Source: Chloroflexota bacterium (lineage in GTDB: Bacteria; Chloroflexota; UBA11872; VXOZ01). Taken from it: 47,587 bases of DNA. The translations under genes were made by a program, and so were the position numbers. The stretch covers positions 1-47,587 of the forward strand of contig JAPOQA010000022.1 in NCBI GenBank assembly GCA_026710945.1, written 5' to 3'. Every line of letters starts with the position of its first letter. The first letter of the stretch is position 1. Positions 836 through 27,752 of this stretch are shown piece by piece. The notes under the pieces are model-generated. The model was not told where the DNA came from. It searched no databases and worked only from the letters and a program-made list of their open reading frames with translations.

Positions 836-920
836 GTCTCACGCGCCTTAAACTACTGCATTGCGGAACTAAATCATCAACGCCTTGGCGTGCACACCCA
901 CGCTACGCTTCTGCCGCACG

Positions 921-1856
921 TTACGAGCCTACCGCGCTTGGCTCCCGCATCGGGACCATGTTTTCCTTGTGCGGCGCGATATCCGCGTAGGCGCGGGCGT
1001 AGAGATCGGCGCGATTCTGGCGCAGCATGGTTCGCCGGTGGTCGTACTTCGTGCACCAGCTCGTCCAGCGCTCTTCGTCCAGGTCGAGCGTCGCGGTCGC
1101 GTGGCCGGCGCGGTGTCCGGTCTCAGCCAGGGTAAAGCCGTTGTAGTCATAGATCGTCGCATGACTCTGGCGGTACTGCCACCCGAGCGGCCTGTCCTGG
1201 AGAAACGTAGACGTGACCAAGAAGCAGGAGGCATCGTGGGCACGGGTGCGCAGCATCTCCGAGCGAATGGTCTCGGTCGGCCCGGCAGCTTGGGTGGGAT
1301 GGAGCAGCACGTCCGTGCCCTTCAAGCCGTAAATCTGGCAAACCTCCGGGAATGCTTGATCGTTGCAGATGAAGACGCCGTAGCGGACGCCGTCCACTTC
1401 GATGGGCTCGATCGCGTCCCCAGGCGTGATTCCCTTCACTTCGTACTCGTTCTCGGTGGGTTGTACCTTCCGATAGCGTCCCAGGATGTGGCCCTGCCTG
1501 CCGTAGAAGGTCGCCTGGTTGTACAGGGCTGCGCCATCTCGGGTCAGATTGTTTGAGACCACAGTAACATTGTGGCGCGCGGCAAACTCCAGGAAGCGCG
1601 CCGCAACCGGACCATCTTCCGTCATGGCGAGTTCAAGCGCCCCGGCGAAGCGCGCCTCCGGTTCGCTCCGCTCCTGAATGTGCCGCCACTCCATGCACCC
1701 CATGGTCTCGAACATTTCCGGCAGGAGGATCACGTCGGGTTGGTCTGCCAACGCCGCTTCCAGGTAGCGAAACGCCTGATCGTAGCGAGCGGCCTGGGTA
1801 GCCGCTTCGCTGCCGAGAAGAAAGGAAATGGTGGAAATTCTCACGCGCCGCGCCAT
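921..1856 (-). CDS. Carbon-nitrogen hydrolase (nitrilase superfamily)
   Basis: 311 residues from the ATG at 1856; the frame stays open upstream but the homologous part begins at MARRVRIST. The Glu-Lys-Cys triad of the nitrilase superfamily is visible: E47 in LLPEMFE, K130 in GRYRKVQPTE and C164 in GVFICNDQAFPE. Members hydrolyse amides or nitriles, or act as N-carbamoyl amidases; the substrate cannot be read from sequence. The C-terminus (DLYARAYADIAPHKEN) is as seen in stand-alone amidases. It ends facing moaE and has no close operon partner; 314 bp of repeat-bearing DNA lie upstream. Confidence 0.9.
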   Translation of the reverse strand: MARRVRISTISFLLGSEAATQAARYDQAFRYLEAALADQPDVILLPEMFETMGCMEWRHIQERSEPEARFAGALELAMTEDGPVAARFLEFAARHNVTVVSNNLTRDGAALYNQATFYGRQGHILGRYRKVQPTENEYEVKGITPGDAIEPIEVDGVRYGVFICNDQAFPEVCQIYGLKGTDVLLHPTQAAGPTETIRSEMLRTRAHDASCFLVTSTFLQDRPLGWQYRQSHATIYDYNGFTLAETGHRAGHATATLDLDEERWTSWCTKYDHRRTMLRQNRADLYARAYADIAPHKENMVPMREPSAVGS

Positions 1857-2170
1857 GGCTGCCTCACTTTCCCAAGTTAACAGAATCCATCGTTTGCCAA
1901 TGCTCTTGCAGCTTCTACCTTCCCCGGGGAGAACTTTGCAAAACCCTCGTCGGAATCGCAAGATCGACCCACTCTCCTAAAGGCTTTCCCCTGCTCCTAA
2001 GACTTTCTCCTTCTCCCTGGGAGGCCTTTGCGTACCTAGAACCTGAGGGAAATGCAGTACTCCCTCTCCTCGGGGTGAGGGGAATCTTCGCCAATTCTAC
2101 CCAGTCCCGCCAGTTTGGTCGGGCTTATCCGCAGTCCCCAGCCACGTGAAATCCGTGGCGCAACGTTCGC
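1857..2170. repeat. Intergenic gap with a decayed CCCTCTCC-type dispersed repeat
   Basis: No gene is visible. About 2013-2085 holds a copy of a dispersed repeat: TCTCCCTGGGAGGCCTTTGC, then CTAGAACCTGAGGGAAATG, then CCCTCTCCTCGGGGTGAGGG. The same blocks recur near 23630-23720 and 32700-32760. Confidence 0.55.
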
Positions 2171-2965
2171 CTAGAGTACCGCGAGGTGGGCGTCCTGCAG
2201 GTCCGTCAGAAACATGTGACCCGCCGCGTGGGTGATCATCAGGGGCGGTTTGCTAGCCAGCGCCACTGCCTGCGGGGTGACGCCGCAGGCCCAGAAGACG
2301 GGCACTTCGCCGTCGTGCACGTCGGTGCGCGCCCCCCACTGCGGTTCGTCGAGGTCTGTGATGCCGATTTCCCCTGGGTCGCCGATGTGTACCGGCGCGC
2401 CGTGGACGCCTGGAAAGCGCGAGGTCGTCTGTACCGCGCGCACGACTTGCGTGTGGTGGATCGGGCGCATGCTCACTACCAGCGGCCCGGAGAAGGCTCC
2501 CGCAGGCGTCGTGTCTCGATTGGTCACGTACACGGGCACGTCGTTGCCCGCCTGCAAGTGGCGCAGCGGTATGCCGGCGGCGAGCATGGCGGATTCGAAA
2601 CTAAAGCTGCACCCGAGCAGGAACGAGACGAAATCATCCTGCCAACGGTCCGCGATATCTGTGACTTCAGCCGCGAGCTCGCCGTTCTCATAGATGCGGT
2701 AGCGGGGCACGTCGGTGCGAATGTCCGCGCCGGGCGCCGTCTCGCGGGGCTCATAGGAGCCCGGTTCCATGACCTCCAACACCGGACACGGCTGGGAATT
2801 GCGCTGGCAGAAGAGGAGAAAGTCAAACGCCAGATCTTTAGGCACAATGGCGAGATTCGCCTGCACGTAGCCGGGCGCCAGACCCTCCGTCGTGGTCTGC
2901 CACTCTCCGGCGCGTATGATCTCCCGTAACGCGTGCGGCTGTTTCGGTAACGCTGCTCTATCCAT
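2171..2965 (-). CDS. DUF1445 / D-glutamate cyclase-like putative hydro-lyase
   Basis: 264 residues, the usual size of the DUF1445 family (YcsI-like; the mammalian homologue is a D-glutamate cyclase). Typical segments are visible: APGYVQANLAIVP near the N-terminus, DFLLFCQRNSQPCPVLEV, the central SFLLGCSFSFESAML, then SMRPIHHTQVVRAVQ, HGAPVHIGDPGEIGI and the C-terminal VFWACGVTPQAVAL. AAGGAA lies 9 bases before the ATG. In many genomes such genes accompany 5-oxoprolinase or LamB/YcsF genes, but none is here, so the substrate is unknown. 138 bp separate it from the HAD gene upstream. Confidence 0.88.
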   Translation of the reverse strand: MDRAALPKQPHALREIIRAGEWQTTTEGLAPGYVQANLAIVPKDLAFDFLLFCQRNSQPCPVLEVMEPGSYEPRETAPGADIRTDVPRYRIYENGELAAEVTDIADRWQDDFVSFLLGCSFSFESAMLAAGIPLRHLQAGNDVPVYVTNRDTTPAGAFSGPLVVSMRPIHHTQVVRAVQTTSRFPGVHGAPVHIGDPGEIGITDLDEPQWGARTDVHDGEVPVFWACGVTPQAVALASKPPLMITHAAGHMFLTDLQDAHLAVL

Positions 2966-3103
2966 GTTCTGTTTCCTTACCTCGCGATTCTCAGCAGCCT
3001 TACGGCAAAGTTTACTAGAATCCTTTTGGATGCAGTGTAGCAGAACCCAATTGGTAAGAGGCTATCCACCCACGGACGTCAGCGCCAAGCTCTCTGGTCT
3101 GCA

Positions 3104-3757
3104 TCAAACCTCGTTTGCGCTCCACTCTTGCAGCACGTCTATGGCCGTGAGCAACGACTCGCATGCGGCATCGGCTGCCGCGATCATCGTTTCGCCTTCC
3201 GGCACGGCGATACACCGCATGCCGGCCGCTTTCGCCGACCTCACGCCGCGGGGGCTATCTTCCAGCGCCACACACTCGCCCGGCTCCACACCCAACCGCG
3301 CCGCCGCCAGCAGATAGAGCGCCGGGTCCGGCTTACCCTCTACGACCTCATCTCCTGTCGCCACAGCCTGGAAATAGGTGCGGATACCCAGCACCTCGAG
3401 CACCACGTCAATGTAGACCTTGTCTCCGGATGAGGCCGACCCGCAGCACCATCCCCGGTCGCGCACCCACTCCAAGGCCTCTCGGAGACCGGGCTTCGGC
3501 CCCAGACGTTCTCGGATGAGCGCGATCAGGATTGCGTGGTAGCGGTCCAGCATCTCCTCCGGCTCTGCGGCAAACCGGCCCCGCGCATGATGCAGCCGGA
3601 AGATATCGATGCTGCGCTTCCCCAGGCTCTCTGCCGCGTCGGTAGGATAGGTTGGAAAGCCGCACTCGCGGCCGAGCTCATGCCACGCGGCGCGGTGGAG
3701 CGGTTCGCTGTCTGCCATGAGACCGTCTACGTCGAAGATGACGCCAGCAATATTCAT
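3104..3757 (-). CDS. HAD-superfamily phosphatase, beta-phosphoglucomutase-like subgroup
   Basis: 217 residues from the ATG at 3757. HAD motif I is FDVDGLMADSEPLH (nucleophile D9, acid/base D11), motif II is GSASSGDKV, the motif III lysine is in VVEGKPDPALYLLA, and motif IV is CVALEDSPRGVRSAKAAG. The cap follows motif I directly (subfamily IA), as in beta-phosphoglucomutase and small sugar-phosphate or 2-deoxyglucose-6-phosphate phosphatases. Glucoamylase is encoded nearby, which is only a hint at a sugar phosphate. The start is 7 bases after the stop of the acetyltransferase gene, so the two are likely cotranscribed. Confidence 0.88.
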   Translation of the reverse strand: MNIAGVIFDVDGLMADSEPLHRAAWHELGRECGFPTYPTDAAESLGKRSIDIFRLHHARGRFAAEPEEMLDRYHAILIALIRERLGPKPGLREALEWVRDRGWCCGSASSGDKVYIDVVLEVLGIRTYFQAVATGDEVVEGKPDPALYLLAAARLGVEPGECVALEDSPRGVRSAKAAGMRCIAVPEGETMIAAADAACESLLTAIDVLQEWSANEV

Positions 3758-3764
3758 CGGCAGC

Positions 3765-4883
3765 CTAGAAGTGGTCAAGGTTCCACATGTACGGATGTCC
3801 TCCTGGAAAGAGTATGTCGACAATAGCAACATCTTGCTCCGCAACACAGGACGGGAACTCCAAGCGCAACTCCCCAAGGGTGCGGTAGCCCATCAAGAGC
3901 TGCAGTAGATTTTCCTGTGGCAGGTTAATTGTGATTGTGCAGCCAGCGCCGATTTCCATCTCCGCCCGCTCGGCATCGCAGACGAATGCCACCTTGCCGA
4001 AACTACCCTCCAAACCCGATGATCGCATGCGCTCTCCCAAAGTTTCTTTGAGCGCCACGGCGAGGCCGCCCAGATCCACGATGCGGCCCATGCCTCCCTG
4101 ATTGTGCGAGTACTCGATTTCCTGGCGAAAGCCGATTGACCGCAAAACTGCCAACATCGGCGCATCCGGCGGCATCTCAAGGTCGATCCACTCCGCTCGC
4201 TGCCGGACTGCCTCAGCTACAAGCGCTCGGATGAGACTTGATCCGGCAGTTGCCGCAGCTATCCCAGGCGCCACGAACTCATACGGGCGTGTATACCACA
4301 TAGATGCCGAGCGCCATCCATGCTCACCCAAGGCGTATGCGACCGGTTGACCATTCTCTTCTGCGACCAGAATGCGGCTCGGCTCTTGAAACCACTCTTC
4401 CGTGGCATCACGCCAGGGCAGGAATGCACTTTCTGACCGCTTGGCGGCCCCGTTTCGCCCGCGAGTCTCCTCAGTGTAGATAGCCAGGAGCGCTTTCTCG
4501 TCAGCTTGCCTGGCTTCACGCACCGGCGACAACTCGCCTAATGCTTCAGCCGCTTGCGTTCTTACTCGTATGAGACTTTTCGCCGGCAGCACGGTTGCGT
4601 AGCCAATGCGGTGGTAGAAGCCAGGGATTCCAAAAAGAATCGAGACCAGATACCCTTCCCGGCGCATATACGCAACGGTATCTTCCATGAGCCGCCGCCC
4701 ATAGCCTCTGCCACGGTGCGCAGGACTAACCCGGACGCTTGCCACTCCTCCCATGCGCACCCACGTTGATCCCAAGCGCATTTCCCGGTCCTCGATGGTT
4801 AGCCGGGCTACCTCTTCACCGTCTGCAACCAGGGCTAATTTCTGGCGATTCCCCTCTGGCGTAGACCGCAGTGACGTCTCCAT
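3765..4883 (-). CDS. Eis-like GNAT acetyltransferase
   Basis: 372 residues from the ATG at 4883, which has a strong GGGAGG 6 bases upstream; the longer open frame lacks support. The N-terminal GNAT domain carries the acetyl-CoA loop VSPAHRGRGYGRRLM. A second, degenerate GNAT half follows (about 140-270). The C-terminal domain from about 275 ends in HPYMWNLDHF, as in the SCP2-like tail of Eis/COG4552 proteins. Such enzymes acetylate amines, in some cases at several sites of aminoglycosides or on lysines; the substrate here is unknown. The gene is the first of a likely two-gene unit with the HAD phosphatase. Confidence 0.87.
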   Translation of the reverse strand: METSLRSTPEGNRQKLALVADGEEVARLTIEDREMRLGSTWVRMGGVASVRVSPAHRGRGYGRRLMEDTVAYMRREGYLVSILFGIPGFYHRIGYATVLPAKSLIRVRTQAAEALGELSPVREARQADEKALLAIYTEETRGRNGAAKRSESAFLPWRDATEEWFQEPSRILVAEENGQPVAYALGEHGWRSASMWYTRPYEFVAPGIAAATAGSSLIRALVAEAVRQRAEWIDLEMPPDAPMLAVLRSIGFRQEIEYSHNQGGMGRIVDLGGLAVALKETLGERMRSSGLEGSFGKVAFVCDAERAEMEIGAGCTITINLPQENLLQLLMGYRTLGELRLEFPSCVAEQDVAIVDILFPGGHPYMWNLDHF

Positions 4884-5545
4884 GTGAGTCCTCCCAAACC
4901 TCTCCCGACCTGCGCCGGCAGCTATCTCAGCGGGAACCTCTTGGGGCAGTGCTGTCTCATGCCGGCATGCTGAGGGCACACCATAATCTCTGTACGCGGA
5001 CCCTTTGCCGTATTGGACCTTGCCCTTTACGGTGCCAAGACATTTTACCCGCCTGGAAGCAAGGTTACTAGCAGGAGATTGACTTGGATTCTGGCTGAGA
5101 AAAGATAAATTAAAAGACTATAATCATCATCTTCATAAGGCCTGTTGAGAGTGGGGAAAAGGCCAGAAATCGCTGCGCTGGGGCGCTGTGGCAGGCAGGA
5201 TAAGTTCATGGGAAAACAGTCTGAATTGCTGGGAAAAACCGCGAATCCAGGAGAGAGTATGGGGTATCTTTCGCAGGTGGGGAAAAGCCCCAAACTTCTC
5301 CCCAAGGTTTAGTACGGCACAGGGCGCGATTAGCGCCTTTTAACCGGAGATTGTCAGTGTTTAACTCACCAAACGGTCAAGTAGTCTGGAAGGCGGATTC
5401 TTGGCTCTAGACCTAGGATATCCCCATTTCGGCTAATTTATCCACTGGTTTAGGGCGAGTTATCCACAGCAGGGCGTTCTTGGGCGCTCATCGGCAAAGA
5501 ACATTGGATTATGTAGAGGCAGTAGTCCACTTATGTCAGCACTTT
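4884..5545. other. 660-bp gap with DnaA-box-like sites, TGGGAAAA motifs and an AT-rich tract
   Basis: No convincing gene. TTATCCACT (5438-5446) and the consensus DnaA box TTATCCACA (5460-5468) lie 22 bp apart on the same strand. Four related motifs, TGGGGAAAA or TGGGAAAA, begin at 5152, 5209, 5230 and 5278. An AT-rich tract covers about 5095-5135. This is origin-like in layout, but no dnaA, dnaN, gyrB or rpmH is near, so a DnaA-regulated promoter, a titration site or chance are alternatives. Confidence 0.4.
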
Positions 5546-5560
5546 CTAATTAAGTGCTGA
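5536..5560 (-). terminator. Hairpin overlapping the GH15 stop codon
   Basis: TCAGCACTT (5536-5544) and AAGTGCTGA (5552-5560) are perfect 9-bp arms around a 7-base loop that contains the TAG stop of the glucoamylase gene. No U tract follows on the minus strand, so it may stabilise the 3' end rather than terminate. Confidence 0.4.
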
Positions 5561-7558
5561 ATTCGGAGTGGGGATTGCGGACTCTTCGAAGGATTCCAGG
5601 TGGCGATACTTCTCTATATACGCATTGACGGTCATTACGACGGTAGCGTGGCTCCAGGTAAGCGGAGAGACACTGAGAGGCGCGTTTGTAAAGGGATGAA
5701 CCTGTTCGGCGAGACAGCCGCTCTCAAGGCGTCGTTGCTCCACCCAAAGCAGGACTTCCTTTGCAGGCTGTAGTTCTTCAAGTGAGGTCGCTTTCGCGAT
5801 GTACCACTCCGCCAGCCAGAGGGTACAAATGAACCACGGGTTCCCAGGAACGACGGCAATATTGTTGCTAATTTGATGGTAGTAGTCGTTCTCGTACCGC
5901 GCGATGCCACCCACATCGGTCTTCACCCACAAGCGCTCTCGTACCGTCTCCATCATCTTGACCACCAGCGGATCGTCAGGCTCGAGCATGCCGAAATACC
6001 AGAGGGCGTAGGTCGCGCTGTCGATGGTCGTGTCATGGCGAACGGTACCGTCGGGCAGAGGCGTTACCATGCGGGAGAAGAGGCCGGTGTCGGGATTTAT
6101 CATGTGCGTGAGAGCCGCTAGCTTAAGTTCCTCCGCGGTACGGCGGTAACTGTCGGTATAGGTGCTCTCGCCAAACGCCTCCGTAAAGTTAGCCGCTGCC
6201 TGGAGACCGGCATAGACGGTGGCTACCGTATGCGCGTGAACCCCGTGGCGTTCTTCCCAGAGATCGTACGACGGTACCGGCAGGCCGGTGGTAAGGTCGC
6301 GGTAGAGGCTCATGAACTGGGCGGCGGGCTTAATGAAGGACGCATAGAACGGCTTTACAAACTCTACGTCCCAGTACTTCTCAAAGTGCTGCCACAGCGC
6401 CCAGATAACCAGGGCGGTCTCGTCCTCCTGGATCGGGTGCTGGCGGGAACCGTCCGGCGCCGCCCAGGGATGCCAGGAGGAACCGACCGATCCATCCGGA
6501 TTATACTTGTGCATCATGTAGCCCTGGGGCGTGATGGTGCGCAAGCAGAAGCTGAAGAAGCGGCGCGAAATCTCGCCATAACCGGCGCGGCTCAGCGCGT
6601 ACGCAACCAGCGCGCCGTCGCGCGGCCACATGTAGGAGTAGGTGTCGCGGCCGAACTGGGCAATGTCGTTATCGTTGGCGGCCAGAATCGCGCCCTCGTG
6701 GTCCGTTTGGGTCTGGATCGTGAGGAGACTCCGATTGAAGAGCGCGCCAATTTCGGGCGGCAGGTCGGCTAACGAAAAACCCTCTTTGCGCACCCAATGC
6801 CGCCAGTACTCCTGCGTGCGGTAGAGCACCGCCGCGGGCCCCACCTGGCGGATGTGGCGCTCGATGTCTTCCACAGCCATAGCATCAGAGCCGACTGCCA
6901 TCCAGTAGTAGACGGTAGCGGATTCGCGCGCGGGAACGGTAACGCATATCGCGCCGGTACTATCCACAGAGCCTTGCGCGATTGGGTTTCCTTCCAGGCG
7001 GCCGTCCTCGGCATCGCGCCAGGTGCCTTCCAGCCCGCCAACGTTCTTGGTGCCGGTCGCGTATGAATCCAGGCCGATGTCGGTCCCACTCATCGCGTTC
7101 ATCCAGAAGAAGGTCTTGCCCTTATAGTGAATGAGCGCACGGTGGCGCGGATCGTAATATGCCGTGTCCCCAATGCTGATACCGCCGAGAGAGAAGTTAT
7201 GGTGGAAGAAGAGGCGCACCTCGCGCTCGGAATCCGCCTGGTTCTCCACCGTTATGCGCCGCAGGAAGACATTCCGGCTATAGTCAACGGCATCGTTGAG
7301 GTTGAGCTTTATGCGGAGGCGGTCGTTCTGCGCCGTGACGTCGGTGACGAGCGTATCTTCCTTGTACCGCAGCGACTTCTGCCAGGACCGGTCGTGGATC
7401 CACGCGAAAAGTCCATCCACCCAGACGCCGAATTGGAAAGGGTGCCCCTGTGCGTGGTCCTCTTGCCCGACGTGGGGGTAGTACACGTCACGGATACGGT
7501 AATCGCTATCGAAGCAGACGAGCAGGCGGCCGTTTCCTACTGGTAAGTCACGTGGCAT
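5546..7558 (-). CDS. Glycoside hydrolase family 15 (glucoamylase-like)
   Basis: 670 residues. The N-terminal part (to about 270) is the beta-sandwich seen in bacterial GH15 enzymes. The (alpha/alpha)6 barrel begins near FGRDTYSYMWPRDGALVAY, the family signature. The general acid Glu is in QHPIQEDETALVIWALW and the likely base Glu is in SGCLAEQVHPFT, followed by SPLTWSHATVVM. GH15 enzymes release glucose from alpha-1,4/1,6 glucans, or hydrolyse trehalose or isomaltose. There is no signal peptide, so it is probably cytoplasmic and acts on glycogen-type polymers or trehalose. Spacing of a weak TTAGG to the ATG is about 9. No other glucan gene is adjacent. Confidence 0.93.
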   Translation of the reverse strand: MPRDLPVGNGRLLVCFDSDYRIRDVYYPHVGQEDHAQGHPFQFGVWVDGLFAWIHDRSWQKSLRYKEDTLVTDVTAQNDRLRIKLNLNDAVDYSRNVFLRRITVENQADSEREVRLFFHHNFSLGGISIGDTAYYDPRHRALIHYKGKTFFWMNAMSGTDIGLDSYATGTKNVGGLEGTWRDAEDGRLEGNPIAQGSVDSTGAICVTVPARESATVYYWMAVGSDAMAVEDIERHIRQVGPAAVLYRTQEYWRHWVRKEGFSLADLPPEIGALFNRSLLTIQTQTDHEGAILAANDNDIAQFGRDTYSYMWPRDGALVAYALSRAGYGEISRRFFSFCLRTITPQGYMMHKYNPDGSVGSSWHPWAAPDGSRQHPIQEDETALVIWALWQHFEKYWDVEFVKPFYASFIKPAAQFMSLYRDLTTGLPVPSYDLWEERHGVHAHTVATVYAGLQAAANFTEAFGESTYTDSYRRTAEELKLAALTHMINPDTGLFSRMVTPLPDGTVRHDTTIDSATYALWYFGMLEPDDPLVVKMMETVRERLWVKTDVGGIARYENDYYHQISNNIAVVPGNPWFICTLWLAEWYIAKATSLEELQPAKEVLLWVEQRRLESGCLAEQVHPFTNAPLSVSPLTWSHATVVMTVNAYIEKYRHLESFEESAIPTPNSALN

Positions 7559-8035
7559 GTTCTACAGCCTAAGCAACAGATGATGAGGCGATACCAACAA
7601 ATCAAGGGTTTTCACGCAATGCCCGCGCGCCACCGTGAACGCGCCGGCAAACCCCGCCGGGAAAACGCGACTGCACCGGCGGTGAATTCGCAGAATTCGG
7701 ATAGAGCGATTCTTGCCGGGGTGTTCCCAGCCTGACGACTCCCATTGTACAGACCAATGCGCCACACGCAACCTTGGCGCGTCTGCAAATGACCTGCAAC
7801 CGAAATACCTCTTGCGCCATGCTATCATGGGATGGTGTTGCGTCTCGCCGGGGCGCATGGTGCGGCGCGAAACGAGGCGGGACGCGAAGAGGGCGACAGC
7901 CCTGCCTTCACCTGCGTATTCACGCAATCGACAGCCGTCGGAGCCTTGGTAGGCGGGCTAAGCGATGCTGGCAGCGCAGGCTCTGCAGCCTGCAAGCGGG
8001 ATACCCTCTGGGACAAATGTACACGAAGAGAGAAG
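7559..8035. other. 477-bp gap between divergent GH15 and cca genes
   Basis: No gene is supported on either strand. A short inverted repeat GCAGGCTCTGCAGCCTGC lies near 7976-7993 and resembles the GCAGGTTGCAGACCTGC repeats at 32985 and 40076. A GGGCGACAGCCC hairpin lies near 7890-7902. Promoters for both genes must be here, but I cannot place them. Confidence 0.4.
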
Positions 8036-9457
8036 ATGAATACGAGTATGGAAGCGTCCGTGCGCGGTACAAGCGTAGTGCAAGATCTCGTAGATGCGCC
8101 GGTTCTGCGCGCCCTGGCGGCGCATTTTGCGGAAGCCGGGTACGAGCTCTACCTGGTCGGCGGCTCGGTGCGGGACGCGCTGCTGCACCGCCCGACCCAC
8201 GACCTGGACCTGGCTACCGATGCCCATCCTCCCGAAATTAAGCGGCTGCTTGCGCTTGCGGGGCCGGACTCCCGTTACGACGTGGGGGAGAAGTTCGGCA
8301 CCATCGGCGCGACCTTTGGCGAATGGGTGGTGGAGATTACAACCTACCGCAGCGAACAATATGCCTTCGCCAGCCGCAAGCCCGCCGTTACCTTCGGCAC
8401 GAATTTGGAGGACGACCTGTCGCGGCGCGACTTCACCATCAACGCGATTGCCCAGGAACCGGCTGCCGGCGGCATGCTCGATCCCTTTCACGGGCTACAG
8501 GACTTGCAGCGGGGCCTTATCCGCGCCGTGGGAGATCCTGCGGAGCGATTTCAGGAAGACCCGTTGCGCATGTTGCGGGCGGTGCGGTTTGCGGCAGAAC
8601 TCGATTTTCGCATCGATCCGGCTACCCGCGAGGCACTGCAACAGCAGGCTGGCGCGCTGGAGCACGTGAGCACGGAACGTATCGCCGCCGAGATGACCCG
8701 CATGCTCACGGCGGACCAAACAGTGGTTGGACTCGAAATCCTGTGCGACTCCGGCCTGGCGTCATACGTTATCCCTGAGCTGCTGCCGCTGCGCAGTACT
8801 GGCCAGGACGGGCGCCACAAGGACGTGTTCGGCCATACACTCAAAGTCGTGGAGAACGTGCCCGCCACGCCGGTGCTGCGCTGGGCGGCGCTGCTGCACG
8901 ACATCGGTAAGCCGAAGACGAAGACGGTGCAGGACGGCAAGGTGCACTTCTTCCGGCACGAGATGGTGGGCGCGCGCATGGCGCGGCGCATTCTGCGGCG
9001 GTTGCGCTTCGACCGGGAAAGCAGCGAGCGCATTCAACGTCTGGTGGCCGAACACCTGCGTCCAAACCTCTACACGCCGGAGTGGACCGACGGTGCGGTG
9101 CGCCGCTTCCTGCGGGAAACGGAAGGCGTCACGGACGATCTCTTCGCCCTCTCCCGCGCCGACATTACCAGCTACCGCCGCTCCCGCGTGGAGGCGGGCG
9201 TGGCGCGCGTTAACCACCTGGAAGCCCGCTGCCGCGAGCTCCAGGCCCAGGAAGACGTGGCGCAACTCAAGAGCCCGCTGGACGGCAACGACCTCATGAC
9301 CATGTTCGATCGCAGCCCGGGGCCTTGGATCAAGCCGATCAAAGATCATCTCCTCAACCACGTCATCGACGGCGACCTGGGTCAGGACGATACGGAAACT
9401 GCTGCCAGACTAGCGAAGGAGTTCGCGGAAAAGCACCCGGAAGTACTTGCGGAATGA
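8036..9457 (+). CDS. cca: CCA-adding enzyme / poly(A) polymerase family tRNA nucleotidyltransferase with HD domain
   Basis: 473 residues from the ATG at 8036 (GAAGAGAGAAG upstream; another Met is codon 5). The class II nucleotidyltransferase head has YLVGGSVRDALL (GGSVRD 42-47) and the catalytic pair in HDLDLATD (D56, D58); RRDFTINAIA follows, and the RNA-binding neck has DPLRMLRAVRFAAEL. An HD domain follows with LLHDIGKPKT. The enzyme adds or repairs the 3' CCA of tRNA. The HD domain suggests additional 2',3'-cyclic phosphodiesterase or phosphatase activity, as in E. coli Cca. Some family members add only A or only CC, which cannot be settled here. It is followed after 111 bp by the toxin-antitoxin genes. 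Confidence 0.92.
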   Translation: MNTSMEASVRGTSVVQDLVDAPVLRALAAHFAEAGYELYLVGGSVRDALLHRPTHDLDLATDAHPPEIKRLLALAGPDSRYDVGEKFGTIGATFGEWVVEITTYRSEQYAFASRKPAVTFGTNLEDDLSRRDFTINAIAQEPAAGGMLDPFHGLQDLQRGLIRAVGDPAERFQEDPLRMLRAVRFAAELDFRIDPATREALQQQAGALEHVSTERIAAEMTRMLTADQTVVGLEILCDSGLASYVIPELLPLRSTGQDGRHKDVFGHTLKVVENVPATPVLRWAALLHDIGKPKTKTVQDGKVHFFRHEMVGARMARRILRRLRFDRESSERIQRLVAEHLRPNLYTPEWTDGAVRRFLRETEGVTDDLFALSRADITSYRRSRVEAGVARVNHLEARCRELQAQEDVAQLKSPLDGNDLMTMFDRSPGPWIKPIKDHLLNHVIDGDLGQDDTETAARLAKEFAEKHPEVLAE

Positions 9458-19484: not shown

Positions 19485-19862
19485 AGCACGCCGCCAACTC
19501 TGTTAGCAAAGCGGCTTGTCCGGTTCTAGGGGACACTACGACGATATCCGCTTGTGTCGCCTTTAACGCTGGCCGTTAGCTTCACGGAGGGCCGCGGCTT
19601 GTCGTGAGCCGGTCGTGACGCGTAATGACCCCAAAACAATCTGATTCCAGAGGATCACTAAAGGCTATCTCATGAACAGATTCGAAATGCCGTTTCATGC
19701 TTCGACCCTTCGTCACAGCCTGTCGAAGTGCTCAGGACAGGCAAGGGTCTCGCGCAGCACTCAGCACGAGCGGATCTTTCGCTTTCCCGTTCGCCCCCGT
19801 ATCAAGTACGGGGCAGGCTCTGAGCCTGTCTAAGGGCGGGTCTGCGCAGAACTATACATTTA
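19485..19862. repeat. Gap holding a CTTCGAC...CTCAGGACAGGCAAG repeat
   Basis: 19697-19837 carries a dispersed repeat: CCTGTCGAAGTGCTCAGGAC, then CGCCCCCGTATC, then CAGGCTCTGAGCCTGTC. Related copies are at 31341-31440, 37168-37215, 37392-37430 and 45022-45055. The IS1595-like element begins just downstream. No gene is visible. Confidence 0.55.
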
Positions 19863-19884
19863 CGGACTTATGCGATGTGGGCTT
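19855..19884. repeat. Target duplication and left inverted end of the IS1595-like element
   Basis: TACATTTA (19855-19862) followed by the 22-bp inverted end 19863-19884. Confidence 0.85.
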
Positions 19885-20003
19885 ATAGTGCTCCAGTTAT
19901 TGCGTGTGGGACGAGTTCTTTGTATTCTTTCTTAGGGATCGTCGGTTCACTTAGCAGCGCGCCGGCGATCTCCTCTTATTGCAGTTGAATAGGCCAACAC
20001 TTG

Positions 20004-21443
20004 TTATGCTATGGGAAGCTTTGGCTGCGCATCATGCCTACCAGCCGCGATATTAGGCGTGCTAAACCTCTTGCCTTCTAATATCTCTTCAACAGTCAAT
20101 ATTTGCATGCGCGGGTAATGAATCCCGTGTACATCAATGCTACCCGCTTGCGCCATTTCGCGATTGAAATTGCGCTCTTTTGCTGCACTTAGTGGTGCCA
20201 TGATGATAAGCCCGGCCATGAGTGCATCATCCCTCTCAAGCACTCCCCTGAGATCACGAATGATACTGACATTAATATTCTTGCCACCTTTGACTTCCAA
20301 TACCATGCTCTGAATATTGAGGTTATTTGGCAAGTAAAAGTAAAGCCGCCCATCAATTCCTCCGTCGTTAGTTCGTCGCGTGGTCACAAATCCTTCGATT
20401 TGCTCAACTGCCCACTTCTGGAAGTGATATTTGTCCCGCTCCCACAAGTCTTGAGCGCCCTCCAAGTTGCGCGGCACTCCTTCCACAGTGTAATCTCTTC
20501 CTTCTATCAGCCCGCAACGGTCGCCAAGACGGACCTGGGCAACTCGCTTGACAGCGTGTATCGCTATATCAATTCCAATCCACTGTCTTTCTAGTCTATG
20601 GGCAGCCTCAAGTGTCGTCGCGCAGCCCGCAAATGGGTCTAGTACGAGATCTCCAGGATTGCTTGACGCCTTGATTATGCGAGTCAGCAAGGCAATAGGC
20701 TTCTGCGTTGTATAACCAAGCCGTTCTTTCGATGTTCGCCCGATAGCATTGATTTCCCAAATGTCACGCATTGTTGCCATTGTGTACCAATTTCCATTTT
20801 CGTCTTGATACTCTTTTACACCCTTGAAGCGGTATGGTTTACAGTCTCGATTGTACGATTTCTCTTTTTCAACATGAAACGTCGCATGCTTGGATGCTTT
20901 CACGTAGAAGAGTATTACGTCATGTTTTCTGCCAAACCAGCGCTTGCTGACACCACCAGTACGGTACCCCCAAATGACTTCATTTCTAAAATTCCCGTGA
21001 CCAAATACAGCATCCATAATCACTTTTATGTAGTGGCTCGCTGTGGGGTCGCAGTGGAAATAGATGCTCCCTGTTGGCTTCAGAATGCGTTGCATAACAA
21101 TCAATCGCTCCGTCATATAAGACAGGTATGCAAGCAAGCGGGGTTGTGTATTTCGCAATGCATTCATCCAAAGTTGCCAAAGCCTTGCAGCAGAGTCATC
21201 AATCCCGGCTTCACGCATCAAGACGGGCATTGCCCGTATAACGCGCTCGCGCTCTTCATCTAGTTCCCACGCGTCACAGAACGCCTCTATTTGGTCGGGA
21301 AGAGGGTTGCCCGTTTCGTCTTTGTAAATGGCATTGTAGGTTCGATTAGAGTTGAAGGGAGGGTCAAGGTATATGAGGTCTACGCTACCTAGAGGCATGT
21401 CCTGCATGATGGTCAAGCAATCGCCATAGTAGAGCTTGTTCAT
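20004..21443 (-). CDS. DNA N6A/N4C methyltransferase fused to a PD-(D/E)XK (Mrr-like) nuclease domain
   Basis: 479 residues. Residues 1-300 are a beta-class amino-methyltransferase: catalytic motif IV LIYLDPPFN (D27-F30) comes first, then a target-recognition region (about 160-240), and SAM motif I LVLDPFAGCATTLEAA at 267-281. Residues 330-479 look like a restriction nuclease: FQKWAVEQIEGF, then NDGGIDGRLYF (D364), then MVLEVKGGK (E383-V-K385), giving the D...EXK site of Mrr-like enzymes. One protein could thus both modify and cut. It starts within the ATGA overlap with the upstream transposase gene, inside the transposon ends, so it is cargo. The target sequence is unknown. Confidence 0.87.
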   Translation of the reverse strand: MNKLYYGDCLTIMQDMPLGSVDLIYLDPPFNSNRTYNAIYKDETGNPLPDQIEAFCDAWELDEERERVIRAMPVLMREAGIDDSAARLWQLWMNALRNTQPRLLAYLSYMTERLIVMQRILKPTGSIYFHCDPTASHYIKVIMDAVFGHGNFRNEVIWGYRTGGVSKRWFGRKHDVILFYVKASKHATFHVEKEKSYNRDCKPYRFKGVKEYQDENGNWYTMATMRDIWEINAIGRTSKERLGYTTQKPIALLTRIIKASSNPGDLVLDPFAGCATTLEAAHRLERQWIGIDIAIHAVKRVAQVRLGDRCGLIEGRDYTVEGVPRNLEGAQDLWERDKYHFQKWAVEQIEGFVTTRRTNDGGIDGRLYFYLPNNLNIQSMVLEVKGGKNINVSIIRDLRGVLERDDALMAGLIIMAPLSAAKERNFNREMAQAGSIDVHGIHYPRMQILTVEEILEGKRFSTPNIAAGRHDAQPKLPIA

Positions 21444-22309
21444 GAGACTGTCGCCTGAATGAAGTCGCCAAACGCATTCTCATTGCGCCGGATATTGTAC
21501 TTGTAGCAGGCTTCGGCAACGTACGCTGCGGCATGGCGCGTGGTGTAGTGGTGATGCTGTCCGAACAATGCCCGCTTGAGCAATGCCCAAAAGCCTTCAA
21601 TGGTGTTGACGTGGGTTATGCCTTCAACGTAACACTTGCCGTGATCAACTGTAGCATGGCGTATCCAGTCACCCATGCGGCCATAGGCGGGGAGTTGGTC
21701 GGTCATTAGCAATGCGTCGGAACTTACGCGGCGTGTGAGAAAAGCCTTAAGCGTCTTAGCAGTCACACGTGGCGTGGGCTGTGCTGACACTTTGCCGCCG
21801 CGCTCTACTGCACCAAGCACGGGTAGCTTCTTGGTACCGCGCCCACGAGGATTTTTGCCTCTAGGCTTGGTGTTGTTGCCCTTACGTGGCTTGCCGCCTA
21901 TGTAGGTTTCGTCGGCTTCAACGATGCCGGTTAGCAATGCGCTATCGGTGACCATGCCGTTGCGGATTTTCATTGCCAAACGCCATGCCGTTGACTGAAC
22001 CATGTCTAGGTCACGCGCTAGTTGACAACTACTGAGAGACTTCTTAGCATTCAGCACTATGGAGATAGCTAGAAACCACTTTTGCAGCGGTACCTTAGTG
22101 CCTTGAAAAATCGTACCGTGCAGTACGTTGTAGCTATTGTGGCAAGCATGGCAATTCCAGCGGCCTACGCGCTCACCGTCAGCTTTACGCGCTACCTGTG
22201 TACTCCGGCAAAACGGGCATTCGGGATCATCAGCCCAGCGCACCTTTTCAAGATGCTCGATGCAAGACTCGTGGTCGGGAAATCGTTGAAAGACTTTGAT
22301 TATATCCAT
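21440..22309 (-). CDS. IS1595-family (ISXO2-like) transposase
   Basis: 289 residues. An N-terminal zinc ribbon has CPFC (31-34) and CHAC (53-56). The DDE-like core has the DDNK pattern of IS1595: D133 in IVEADETYIGGKPRKG, D204 in LLMTDQLPAYG, then N235 in HVNTIEGFWALLKR with K245. A helix-turn-helix stretch SCQLARDLDMVQSTAWRLAM lies between ribbon and core. All catalytic residues are present, so the element may be active. Its stop overlaps the start of the methyltransferase-nuclease gene (ATGA), so the cargo is translated with the transposase. Confidence 0.93.
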   Translation of the reverse strand: MDIIKVFQRFPDHESCIEHLEKVRWADDPECPFCRSTQVARKADGERVGRWNCHACHNSYNVLHGTIFQGTKVPLQKWFLAISIVLNAKKSLSSCQLARDLDMVQSTAWRLAMKIRNGMVTDSALLTGIVEADETYIGGKPRKGNNTKPRGKNPRGRGTKKLPVLGAVERGGKVSAQPTPRVTAKTLKAFLTRRVSSDALLMTDQLPAYGRMGDWIRHATVDHGKCYVEGITHVNTIEGFWALLKRALFGQHHHYTTRHAAAYVAEACYKYNIRRNENAFGDFIQATVS

Positions 22310-22355
22310 TTCACTACCTCCTACAAATATGGTAGCAAAAGGCTAATCAGAAGTC

Positions 22356-22385
22356 AAGCCCAAATCGCATAACTGCGTACATTTA
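22356..22385. repeat. Right inverted end and target duplication of the IS1595-like element
   Basis: The inverted end is 22356-22377, followed by TACATTTA (22378-22385). Confidence 0.85.
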
Positions 22386-25060: not shown

Positions 25061-25160
25061 GTCAACATGCGGCAAGGAACTTCAAGCCAGTTAGGCCAGG
25101 TTGCCGTCCAATACTGCCAAGCAATATACTGACTTGGAAAGTGTGAAACTAGCAAAGAGA

Positions 25161-25424
25161 ATGAATTTGATACCTTATGCGGTGGGAGCAGGTTCCTTGC
25201 CTAAGCAACAGCAGTCACCGACAATTCGAGAATTGATCAGGTCATTTCTTGCAAACAAGCAGGATTCTGCATCTTTTAGCGAGATCTGCGAGTTTGTAAA
25301 CCAACGTGCATCATTATCATCTAAGAGGCCAAGGGCATCAATATTCTCAGTGCTAACTCGAATGCCAGATGTGCAAAGAGTAGCACGAGGCCGATATTCC
25401 CTTCTGACCAAACCTCAGCGGTGA
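25161..25424 (+). CDS. Small winged-helix protein of the restriction-modification island
   Basis: 87 residues from the ATG at 25161; GTG at 25143 and TTG at 25101 are other possible starts and none has a clear RBS. The body reads TIRELIRSFLANKQDSASFS, then EICEFVNQR, then ASIFSVLTRMPDVQRVARGR with a final YSLL, a winged-helix layout like HARE/HTH domains tied to restriction enzymes. It lies 59 bp before the adenine methylase gene in the same direction. It may be a controller of the module or a DNA-reading subunit. The function is inferred from fold and place only. Confidence 0.6.
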   Translation: MNLIPYAVGAGSLPKQQQSPTIRELIRSFLANKQDSASFSEICEFVNQRASLSSKRPRASIFSVLTRMPDVQRVARGRYSLLTKPQR

Positions 25425-25483
25425 CCGTAGATTAGCTTGTTCCCTTAGGGATTTCTCCGGTTACGCCAGTGAGGAGATTTCTT

Positions 25484-26422
25484 GTGAGCGTCCCCCACCC
25501 CATACCGTATCAGGGCAGCAAGCGGTCAATCGCAAAGTTCATCTTGCCCTTCTTTCCTCCAAACGACTTGAGCGTGAGACTGATAGAGCCATTTGCGGGT
25601 TCAGCAGCTATTTCGTTGGCAGCGACGCACTACTGCAAGGCGCAAACAGTCGTACTCAATGATGTCAACAGTGCTCTTATGAGCCTGTGGGATGAGATAT
25701 TGTTGCGCCCCAATGTCTTGGCAGATCGATATGAAGAATTGTGGAATGCCCAACTCGGACGCGAGAGAGAATACTACAACCTCATACGGGAAAGATTTAA
25801 CAGGTCTCCAAGCCCGGAGTGCTTCCTGTACTTGCTCGCTCGTTGTGTGAAAGCCTCAATTCGCTATAACTCGAATGGCGAGTTCAACCAAAGCCCCGAC
25901 AACCGCAGAAAAGGCGCTAATCCTACAACAATGAGACGACACCTAATAGGGGCTTCGTTGTTGCTGAGTGGCAGGACAACTGTTTCATGCGCTGATTATC
26001 GGGATGTACTTGACGGCGTACTGAGTTCGGATATTGTCTACATGGACCCTCCTTATCAGGGAGTGTGTAATGATCGTGACCCGCGTTACGTCGAGGGTAT
26101 AGATAGAGATGAATTCGTAGAGACGTTGCAAAACCTCAATCAGCGAGAGATTTCGTACGTTGTCAGCTACGACGGTAGAAGCGACGAAAAGAGTTACGGC
26201 GAGGAACTGCCAGAACACTTGGATTTAAAACGCCTAGAGATCGATGCCGGCAGGTCATCTCAGGGGACTCTTCTAGGTAGAGCAACCAAGACATTCGAAT
26301 CACTCTACCTATCATCGGCCTTGCTTGACAGAATCGATGTGATTGCGTCCGGTCAACAACAGGTTGTTTCTAAACAACTTTCTTTGTCAGGAAGTTCTGA
26401 TGTCCGAACCCAACTACCCTAA
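25484..26422 (+). CDS. D12-class (Dam-like) adenine-N6 DNA methyltransferase
   Basis: 312 residues from the GTG at 25484, chosen for GAGGAG 7 bases upstream; GTG at 25469 is possible. Alpha-class order: motif X PIPYQGSKRSIAKFI at the N-terminus, SAM motif I VRLIEPFAGSAAISLAA, and catalytic motif IV SSDIVYMDPPYQG near residue 190. These are the marks of M.DpnII/Dam-type GATC or related adenine methylases, though the recognition site cannot be read. The gene overlaps the HNH gene by 23 bases, which makes a methylase-nuclease pair. Hand count of one line (25741-25800) gives about 47% G+C against 72% for 24841-24900. Confidence 0.9.
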   Translation: MSVPHPIPYQGSKRSIAKFILPFFPPNDLSVRLIEPFAGSAAISLAATHYCKAQTVVLNDVNSALMSLWDEILLRPNVLADRYEELWNAQLGREREYYNLIRERFNRSPSPECFLYLLARCVKASIRYNSNGEFNQSPDNRRKGANPTTMRRHLIGASLLLSGRTTVSCADYRDVLDGVLSSDIVYMDPPYQGVCNDRDPRYVEGIDRDEFVETLQNLNQREISYVVSYDGRSDEKSYGEELPEHLDLKRLEIDAGRSSQGTLLGRATKTFESLYLSSALLDRIDVIASGQQQVVSKQLSLSGSSDVRTQLP

Positions 26423-27137
26423 AGAGTTTCTTGAACGGCTCAAGTCGGTCACGGGGAAACGTCCGAGAACCGTAATCGACCACATTCTTGAGCACGGATT
26501 CATTACAACGGAAGAGTTAGAGGTACTATACGGCTATAAGCATCCACCCAGAGCCGTTCGCGACGTGCGCGAGAGCGGTATCCCTATTGAGACGTTCCAT
26601 GTGCAAAATTCAGAAGGACAACGAATAGCCGCATACCGATTTGGAGATCCAGAGCTCTTAGAAGGAGAAAGGTTTGGTGGCCGCAAGACCTTTTCGAAGG
26701 AGTTTAAGGACAGGCTTCTCAAACAATCGGACAATAGGTGCGGCATTTGTCTGGAGAGATACGAGTCAAGATACTTACAGATAGACCATCGAATTCCTTT
26801 TGAGGTTGCCGGAGATGCCGATGCTGAGCAGAGACGCGCAGACGCATACATGCTGGTGTGCGGCTCCTGCAACCGGGCAAAGTCATGGTCCTGTGAGCAT
26901 TGCGATAACTGGCAAACTTTAAAAAAGCCAGAGAACTGCGCTTCTTGCTACTGGGCTAGCCCTGAATCATACTCTCACGTGGCGCTTGAAGCGGCTCGCA
27001 GGCTTGATATCGCTTGGAAGGGAGACGAGGTTGATGAAATCGATCGCACATCCCGCATTGCCGAGAAAGAGGGAGTCACGACGCCGGAATATGTAAAGAA
27101 GATAGTCAGAAAGCACGTCGGCAAGCGTGAAATGTGA
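26400..27137 (+). CDS. HNH endonuclease, putative restriction partner of the D12 methylase
   Basis: 245 residues from the ATG at 26400 (AGGAAG 5 bases upstream). Residues 20-70 form a winged helix (RTVIDHILEHGFITTEELEV). The HNH core is CGICLERY (C114, C117), LQIDHRIPFE (D129-H130) and LVCGSCNRAKS (C154, C157, N158), with extra zinc-like pairs C165/C168 and C180/C183. This is the classic layout of a zinc-braced HNH restriction nuclease. The 23-base overlap with the adenine methylase gene indicates a type II restriction-modification operon. The cut site is unknown. Confidence 0.88.
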   Translation: MSEPNYPKEFLERLKSVTGKRPRTVIDHILEHGFITTEELEVLYGYKHPPRAVRDVRESGIPIETFHVQNSEGQRIAAYRFGDPELLEGERFGGRKTFSKEFKDRLLKQSDNRCGICLERYESRYLQIDHRIPFEVAGDADAEQRRADAYMLVCGSCNRAKSWSCEHCDNWQTLKKPENCASCYWASPESYSHVALEAARRLDIAWKGDEVDEIDRTSRIAEKEGVTTPEYVKKIVRKHVGKREM

Positions 27138-27290: not shown

Positions 27291-27752
27291 TTATGGGGTC
27301 GAGTCAACGGTCACCCGCACTCCTGTAGTTCGCCGTTGCATCTGCTGAAGTGCTTCTTGCTCCTCAGTCTTGACGTACCGCCAAGACTGAGGCACAACAA
27401 AGTCGTCAAAGAGATTCCGCAGCGTATCTAGCCCGATCGGGACTTCATATTCCCAAACATCCTTAATTTCCAAGGCGTGCGCAATTGATGTTCCCCTAAA
27501 ATAGATATCAAAGTCTAGTCTGTCAACCGCTGCAAGTTCGTGTACACTTCGCCAAACTTCCTCCGGCGGCCCCGACCACACCTGACCGATTTGGAACCCG
27601 CCTCTCAATTCCATAGTTGGACTGGACACGTAGACGAACACACAAGCATTCTCTGCCTGAGACACTATTCGCCGACGGAGTTCGACCGTCTTTAGACCTT
27701 CGAACACCAGATTGGCATATTCTGGCTTTAGGGATATGAAGAGTGGTTTCAT
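27291..27752 (-). CDS. ASCH-domain (PUA-like) protein
   Basis: 153 residues. The N-terminus has the ASCH hallmark: SLKPEYANLVFEGLKTVELR with following RR, then VFVYVSSPTMELRGGFQIGQ. The middle GTSIAHALEIKDVWEYEVPI and the late VPQSWRYV are also typical. ASCH folds resemble PUA domains and are thought to bind RNA or modified nucleotides; some cleave acylated cytidines. The AAGGA ribosome site includes the TAA stop of the upstream GNAT-PIN gene, so the two are translationally coupled. It converges on the HNH gene. Confidence 0.85.
   Translation of the reverse strand: MKPLFISLKPEYANLVFEGLKTVELRRRIVSQAENACVFVYVSSPTMELRGGFQIGQVWSGPPEEVWRSVHELAAVDRLDFDIYFRGTSIAHALEIKDVWEYEVPIGLDTLRNLFDDFVVPQSWRYVKTEEQEALQQMQRRTTGVRVTVDSTP

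Follow-up and report, generated by a model that had tools for sequence, protein, structure and literature searches.

The window analysed here, a stretch of 47,587 nucleotides from a Chloroflexota bacterium (contig JAPOQA010000022.1), contains a 2515-bp transposon at positions 19863–22377, which is probably a complete, self-mobilising transporter insertion sequence (tIS) of the IS1595 family, with a predicted single-chain, Type IIG-like restriction–modification (RM) enzyme as its sole cargo. The transposon is bounded by 22-bp terminal inverted repeats that match at 19 of 22 positions. The left repeat, CGGACTTATGCGATGTGGGCTT (19863–19884), lies distal to the transposase start and carries an end motif common to at least 17 related loci, and the right repeat (22356–22377; reverse complement CGCAGTTATGCGATTTGGGCTT) lies upstream of the transposase. 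The octamer TACATTTA is found directly outside both ends (19855–19862 and 22378–22385) as an exact target-site duplication (TSD), all eight positions being identical, and relatives of the target repeat that lack the insertion have this octamer once. Only two genes lie between the ends, both on the minus strand, i.e., an IS1595-family transposase of 289 aa (21440–22309) and a fused DNA methyltransferase–nuclease of 479 aa (20004–21443), and the stop of the former overlaps the start of the latter by the four nucleotides ATGA (21440–21443). The inverted ends, the duplication, the two-gene content and the overlap had all been claimed in a preliminary description of this DNA, and each was reproduced when recomputed or reread. 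The transposon is thus a unit of insertion sequence (IS) size whose ends enclose, besides the transposase, a passenger gene with no relation to transposition, which is what defines a tIS. Its G+C content is 49.8%, vs. 58.5% for the window.

By its sequence, the 2515-bp element is a member of the IS1595 family, as the preliminary description had proposed. The transposase matches the NCBIfam model IS1595 (NF033547) at 4e-54 (183.7 bits, cut-off 75) and the Pfam models DDE_Tnp_IS1595 (PF12762) at 2e-36 (125.7 bits, cut-off 27) and Zn_ribbon_IS1595 (PF12760) at 4.7e-9 (36.5 bits, cut-off 25.4). It therefore combines the ISXO2-like DDE domain and the N-terminal zinc ribbon of this family, together with the inverted repeats and the 8-bp duplication, and the residues D133, D204, N235, E238 and K245 are conserved in the transposase alignment (A2).

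The cargo protein is divided into two domains, which were assigned by Pfam matches, AlphaFold2 models, comparison with the PDB and a protein alignment (A1). Residues 1–322 are a beta-class amino-methyltransferase as judged from motifs and model: PF01555 (N6_N4_Mtase) matches residues 21–299 at 2.7e-44, the order of motif IV (DPPF, residues 27–30), recognition region and motif I (DPFAGC, residues 269–274, within DPFAGCATTLEAA at 269–281) is that of the beta class, and the model superimposes on M.BceJIV with Z 27.3 over 241 residues, on CcrM with Z 27 and on RsrI with Z 25.5. The comparison of the whole protein with the PDB listed methyltransferases only, because the methyltransferase domain fills the list, and residues 322–479 were hence folded alone. 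The resulting model has a pLDDT of 88 and, using VIA-align, resembles AspBHI (Z 9.8, 119 residues, 3.1 Å), LlaBIII (9.7), AF1548 (9.5), FokI (8.8), PaqCI (8.5) and MspJI (8.2); Foldseek on the nuclease alone gave weak E-values, the best being 1.3e-3 for MspJI, and VIA-align was the clearer of the two. The nuclease domain (residues 327–467) carries the D…(D/E)xK core of the PD-(D/E)XK superfamily on the superfamily fold, with D364 (20352–20354) as the partner of the motif E383-V384-K385 (20289–20297, minus strand). D364 and K385 are invariant in all 40 aligned proteins, and the complete triad is kept in 18 of 18 transposon-linked proteins. The motif positions are as described earlier, and the one-protein RM architecture, with both a methyltransferase and an endonuclease predicted in one chain from domain models, folds and catalytic residues, is well supported as a prediction.

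Several lines of evidence show that the DNA unit moves as a whole. The element was inserted into the tail of a dispersed genomic repeat (19742–19862), which is the target and does not belong to the element, and copies of this repeat in two genomes of the same genus align unbroken across the insertion point with a single octamer (L108, 88% over 135 bp; L109, L110, L111 and L112 are similar). These paralogous repeat copies stand in for the orthologous site, for which a construct of the exact empty site with a single octamer gave no BLAST match to L113–L117 because the intergenic sequence is too diverged. In five of five congeneric genomes searched, the left and right flanking genes are neighbours and the element is absent between them; the methylase gene was not seen there without the ends at the homologous locus. 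Among relatives of the element, a Rhodobacteraceae metagenome-assembled genome (MAG) holds two 3830-bp copies, identical over the full length, at sites with different exact octamers, ATATTTTT and ATTTTTTT; both contain a foreign 1.4-kb insertion, and a complete 2597-bp version (L033) is found in the same genome. Two identical 1031-bp derivatives with internal deletions are present in another MAG. The mobility that had been proposed is thus borne out by shared ends, exact TSDs, empty sites and identical copies of relatives at different sites, and the last of these supports transposition activity indirectly. A search for a second full copy in the element's own genome found partial transposase matches only. 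As a side observation, the dispersed repeat beside the insertion is about 120 bp long and is present as dozens of partial copies per genome in the genus.

The two-gene unit is not confined to this genome. A scan with the methyltransferase–nuclease protein, which covered one genome per species, yielded 66 loci, about 25 of which have an IS1595 transposase directly upstream, mostly 50–63% identical to that of the window. The hosts of the two-gene unit are MAGs of Pseudomonadota, Acidobacteriota, Nitrospirota, Myxococcota and Chloroflexota, and L014, a copy from Lentisphaerota, retains one end, with a doubtful trace of the transposase. The ends of the related elements resemble CGGAATTAGTAGTTATGGGCTT, and exact 8/8 duplications, whose octamers are 88% A+T, flank 17 loci with such ends. 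Because similar ends with exact duplications recur at these 17 loci around the gene pair, the ends and the TSD are beyond chance. In 19 distinct elements the overlap measures 4 nt, with L012 and the L153/L154 pair being different, which shows that the transposase and methyltransferase–nuclease genes form a conserved overlapping pair; the overlap also fits the earlier proposal that the second gene may be coupled to transposase translation. On plasmids, relatives of the methyltransferase–nuclease are at most 47% identical, and the transposase and methyltransferase–nuclease genes lie far apart in the only plasmid listed as having the two of them (Candidatus Megaera, AP017966).

The part of the cargo protein that would set its specificity varies far more than the rest. 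The target-recognition region between the methylase motifs (residues 166–239 in the window's protein; 20727–20948, minus strand) is 68–155 aa long among relatives with a mean pairwise identity of 20%, vs. 72% and 74% for the two methylase cores and 64% for the nuclease. Transposase distances correlate with those of the methyltransferase core (Mantel r = 0.37, 77 of 5000 permutations), and no correlation is seen with the recognition region (r = − 0.07); in the L033/L030 pair, for example, the transposase and the methyltransferase core are each 87% identical and the recognition region is 37% identical. Since the core tracks the transposase and the recognition region does not, the two genes move as a pair, and the specificity is either exchanged or evolving rapidly. 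Such free variation can be understood because one region serving both activities can change in a single step without self-killing.

In a tree of 62 fusions, which has many unresolved forks, nearly all transposon-linked proteins fall into one supported clade of 31 rows (98/92), comprising 21 linked and 10 unlinked members from several phyla. Linkage to the transposon changes nine times on the tree, at least five of them by supported branches, although the unresolved forks make these gain and loss numbers rough. The unlinked members L006, L007, L011, L020 and L023 are intact genes with no transposase in otherwise chromosomal contexts, and such persistence of stand-alone relatives is what one would expect if the gene is of use apart from transposition. 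Members of the wider fusion family abound, with no transposase beside them, in phages and genomes; the cargo protein itself matches phrog_67 ("DNA methyltransferase") at 3.7e-62 and has hundreds of relatives on viral contigs. This distribution suggests one main capture by the transposon, followed by stand-alone survivors, and a few independent captures. In L006, from a Cellvibrionales MAG, two stand-alone methyltransferase–nuclease genes stand in tandem (2379–8820), and by eye the neighbours look like a methionine/SAM-cycle cluster (metK-like, ahcY-like, the two methyltransferase genes, metF-like).

How the unit would work can be outlined, and here we infer enzyme activity, translation coupling and a benefit to the host. 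The transposase would insert copies of the unit at AT-rich targets. The second gene would depend for its translation on re-initiation at the ATGA that closes the transposase gene, so that its level would follow transposase translation. The N-terminal beta-class domain would methylate a site that the variable region specifies, and the C-terminal PD-(D/E)XK domain would cut DNA in which this site is unmethylated, as single-chain Type IIG enzymes do. The likely payoff would be an RM barrier to foreign DNA, for which hosts may tolerate or keep the element.

Some observations weigh against this account. The match of the nuclease to Mrr_cat (PF04471) is weak (E 0.011, 16.3 bits vs. the cut-off of 21), and in the outgroup fusions the position of E383 in the transposon clade is mostly taken by S or Q, so that not all members of the family need be active nucleases. 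The transposase is frameshifted in L010, L013 and L035, internal deletions are present in L044 and L045, and insertions break the copies L018, L022, L028, L029 and L061; with several copies broken, the unit is therefore not indispensable. Moreover, transposases at least 50% identical to the window's occur within the phylum without the methyltransferase–nuclease cargo (G001, G002, G004). The points concerning the nuclease would be explained if it were inactive or a DNA-binding remnant and the gene an orphan methyltransferase passenger. However, the conserved D364/E383/K385 triad disfavours this explanation, the nuclease region keeps a mean identity of 64%, and the PD-(D/E)XK fold is recovered with restriction enzymes ranked at the top; a relative in the same genome (L118) passes the Mrr_cat cut-off with 25.5 bits. 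We therefore regard an inactive nuclease as quite improbable. A more radical explanation, that the ends and the TSD are an assembly artefact or coincidental around a chromosomal methyltransferase gene, could appeal to the genome being a 3.5-Mb draft in 70 contigs with an estimated contamination of 1.6%. It was rejected, with practically no probability left to it, on account of the recurrence of the two-gene unit and its exact TSDs across many independent assemblies, the empty sites and the identical intragenomic copies.

Two further explanations accept an active enzyme and differ in its use. The enzyme may be an addiction or retention device acting by post-segregational killing or donor cleavage, such that loss of the transposon would lead to cutting at newly unmethylated sites. 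Post-segregational killing is one way in which RM systems can behave as selfish elements (PMC3031569), Tn3-family transposons carry toxin–antitoxin pairs within the transposition module (PMC7157771), and PIN and SocA/Panacea-type genes are found in other IS1595 elements. However, a self-copying transposon rarely disappears as a whole, and intact copies are found alongside broken and internally deleted ones. Addiction is also less to be expected of a fused enzyme, whose two activities would be diluted in step, so that we would expect weaker killing than with separate restriction and modification proteins. Addiction, which is possible and weakly expected here, is thus the weakest part of the interpretation, and we think it unlikely, if a little less so than an inactive nuclease. 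On a par with the latter is a role as transposition helper, in which the methyltransferase would mark the ends or the transposase promoter, or the nuclease would free or target DNA, with restriction being incidental. Dam controls IS10 transposition, and both the conserved overlap with the transposase gene and the joint inheritance over long divergence would fit. Nevertheless, elements with similar ends differ freely in the recognition region, making it unlikely that the enzyme reads the transposon ends; related elements move without such cargo (1604-bp copies, G001) or with unrelated RM types, and stand-alone orthologues persist. The helper role is accordingly disfavoured, and the transporter IS with a predicted RM enzyme as cargo remains the probable interpretation.

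The window's element is one of several in its family with such cargo. In a transposase-only census of 400 genomes of the phylum, with elements delimited by ends and exact 8-bp duplications, 10 of 32 delimited IS1595 elements (the window's included) carry methyltransferase and/or nuclease cargo of unrelated types, a striking share, though the count covers the IS1595 family alone, without a formal control from other IS families. Fusions of the window's type are found in the window, L154 and L163. In the window's own genome, L118 (contig C17, reverse-strand coordinates 906–5291; 4386 bp, ends 23/24, TSD CTTAGATT) holds a transposase and a 529-aa methyltransferase–Mrr fusion of another branch, and L169 (contig C41, 1940–4386; ends 24/24, TSD TATTGAAT) holds a transposase, a 251-aa beta-methyltransferase with an ATGA overlap and a 222-aa nuclease-like protein (PD…ELK). 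All three uninterrupted IS1595 transposases of this genome thus lie in elements with methyltransferase/nuclease cargo, the other matches being fragments. Elsewhere, L171 (TSD TTAAATTA) carries a D12 methyltransferase and PDDEXK_11, with L189 as its decayed relative; L205 (G387 contig C18, 3118 bp, TSD TTTCGGGT) carries a C5-methyltransferase and a GIY-YIG endonuclease, each with a 4-nt overlap with the preceding gene; L177 (TSD TAAAATTA) carries a 942-aa methyltransferase and a PIN-like gene; and L209 (TSD TATCCAAT) carries a decayed fusion. In two further cases the cargo status rests on adjacency because the element ends were not found: a 996-aa HSDR_N/N6_Mtase/Methylase_S protein directly behind the transposase in L172, and a D12 methyltransferase and a NotI-family restriction endonuclease following a transposase near the contig edge in L207 (G023 contig C67). 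RM modules appear, then, to have been taken on several times by IS1595 elements. That these transposons are a general RM vehicle, which would often recruit unrelated RM types directly behind and often overlapping the transposase, need them for spread or retention and swap the recognition module among elements that are otherwise alike, is a tentative proposal to which we give somewhat less than even chances.

Other cargo of IS1595 elements comprises PIN (L179, L177), SocA/Panacea antitoxin-like (L186) and DUF3800-like genes, or none; the PIN-domain genes of L179 and L177 are possible toxin–antitoxin cargo. Two 2406-bp IS1595 elements at two sites in the same genus (L156 1770–4175 and L157 1741–4146) contain a gene of about 311 aa in convergent orientation, whose product resembles a secreted protein and has an HELFH motif and no Pfam match. 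Possible cargo in related genomes is seen at L155, L164 and L167, where methyltransferase fusions from other branches (with HNH in L155) are convergent to transposases of the window's clade. Outside the element, about 3 kb away in the window, a likely RM locus was assigned by eye on the plus strand (25469–27137), consisting of a D12-type methyltransferase-like gene (25469–26422, DPPY) and an HNH-type endonuclease-like gene (26343–27137), preceded by a small open reading frame (25101–25424) and followed by an ASCH/EVE-like one on the minus strand (27291–27752).

It has long been argued that RM systems behave as selfish mobile genes, and the best-known cases are genes next to mobile elements or carried by large ones. 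A predicted one-protein RM system inside an IS-sized transposon, present across at least five phyla with a changing specificity region, makes this idea directly testable: since the unit is only 2.5 kb with defined parts, single mutations can tell apart mobility, restriction, addiction and an effect of RM on transposition. The elements are also a source of new predicted single-chain RM enzymes whose recognition regions are diverse, and for annotation, many neighbours labelled as IS1595 transposase and DNA methyltransferase would be one mobile unit.

Passenger genes are already known from IS1595 elements, as are 8-bp duplications (PMC5704250; for passenger-carrying tIS, also PMC3129680). Like the window's element, tISCpe8 and MTnSag1/tISSag10 have an IS1595 DDE transposase, inverted ends (25 bp), an 8-bp duplication and a passenger inside the IS (PMC5704250). 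However, tISCpe8 is a lincomycin-resistance element, whereas here a single-chain methyltransferase–nuclease overlaps the transposase stop and is inherited with the transposase across phyla. In the literature searched, we found no description of RM genes as cargo of IS1595 elements, neither of an IS-sized IS1595 unit with a sole beta-class methyltransferase–nuclease cargo overlapping the transposase and conserved across phyla, although an earlier mention of a methyltransferase passenger is possible, nor of repeated loading of the IS1595 family with unrelated RM types. RM genes that are on transposons, flanked by IS or moved by IS are known (PMC3031569; PMC4081073). In composite IS-flanked systems such as PaeR7I (PMC3031569), RM genes are likewise moved by insertion sequences, but they lie outside the IS, whereas here the RM gene lies inside an IS-sized unit. 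The toxin–antitoxin pairs of Tn3-family transposons (PMC7157771) are similar in being potentially harmful, self-protecting modules beside transposition genes, in a different transposon family and with a different type of module. Fusions of phages and chromosomes (phrog_67) belong to the same protein family as the cargo but are mostly free of transposase linkage, the transposon-linked copies nearly all being in the 31-row clade with the catalytic E.

In its predicted enzymology, the cargo resembles Eco57I, MmeI, BpuSI and, above all, BtgZI, which have endonuclease and methyltransferase in one protein with one specificity module (PMC4081073). BtgZI is similar in its N-terminal methyltransferase and C-terminal PD-(D/E)XK variant, but its methyltransferase is of the alpha class. 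Most Type IIC/IIG enzymes have an N-terminal nuclease followed by a gamma-class methyltransferase, a plan from which the cargo protein departs with its beta-class methyltransferase, its C-terminal nuclease, a recognition region between DPPF and DPFAGC and a small size (473–561 aa). Given the order of DPPF and DPFAGC and the position of the nuclease, the enzyme is therefore predicted to be Type IIG-like in its working rather than a standard member. In Type IIC/IIG enzymes, a change of the specificity module alters cutting and methylation together (PMC4081073), and such a joint change of both activities would allow the specificity of a single-chain transposon cargo to change freely.

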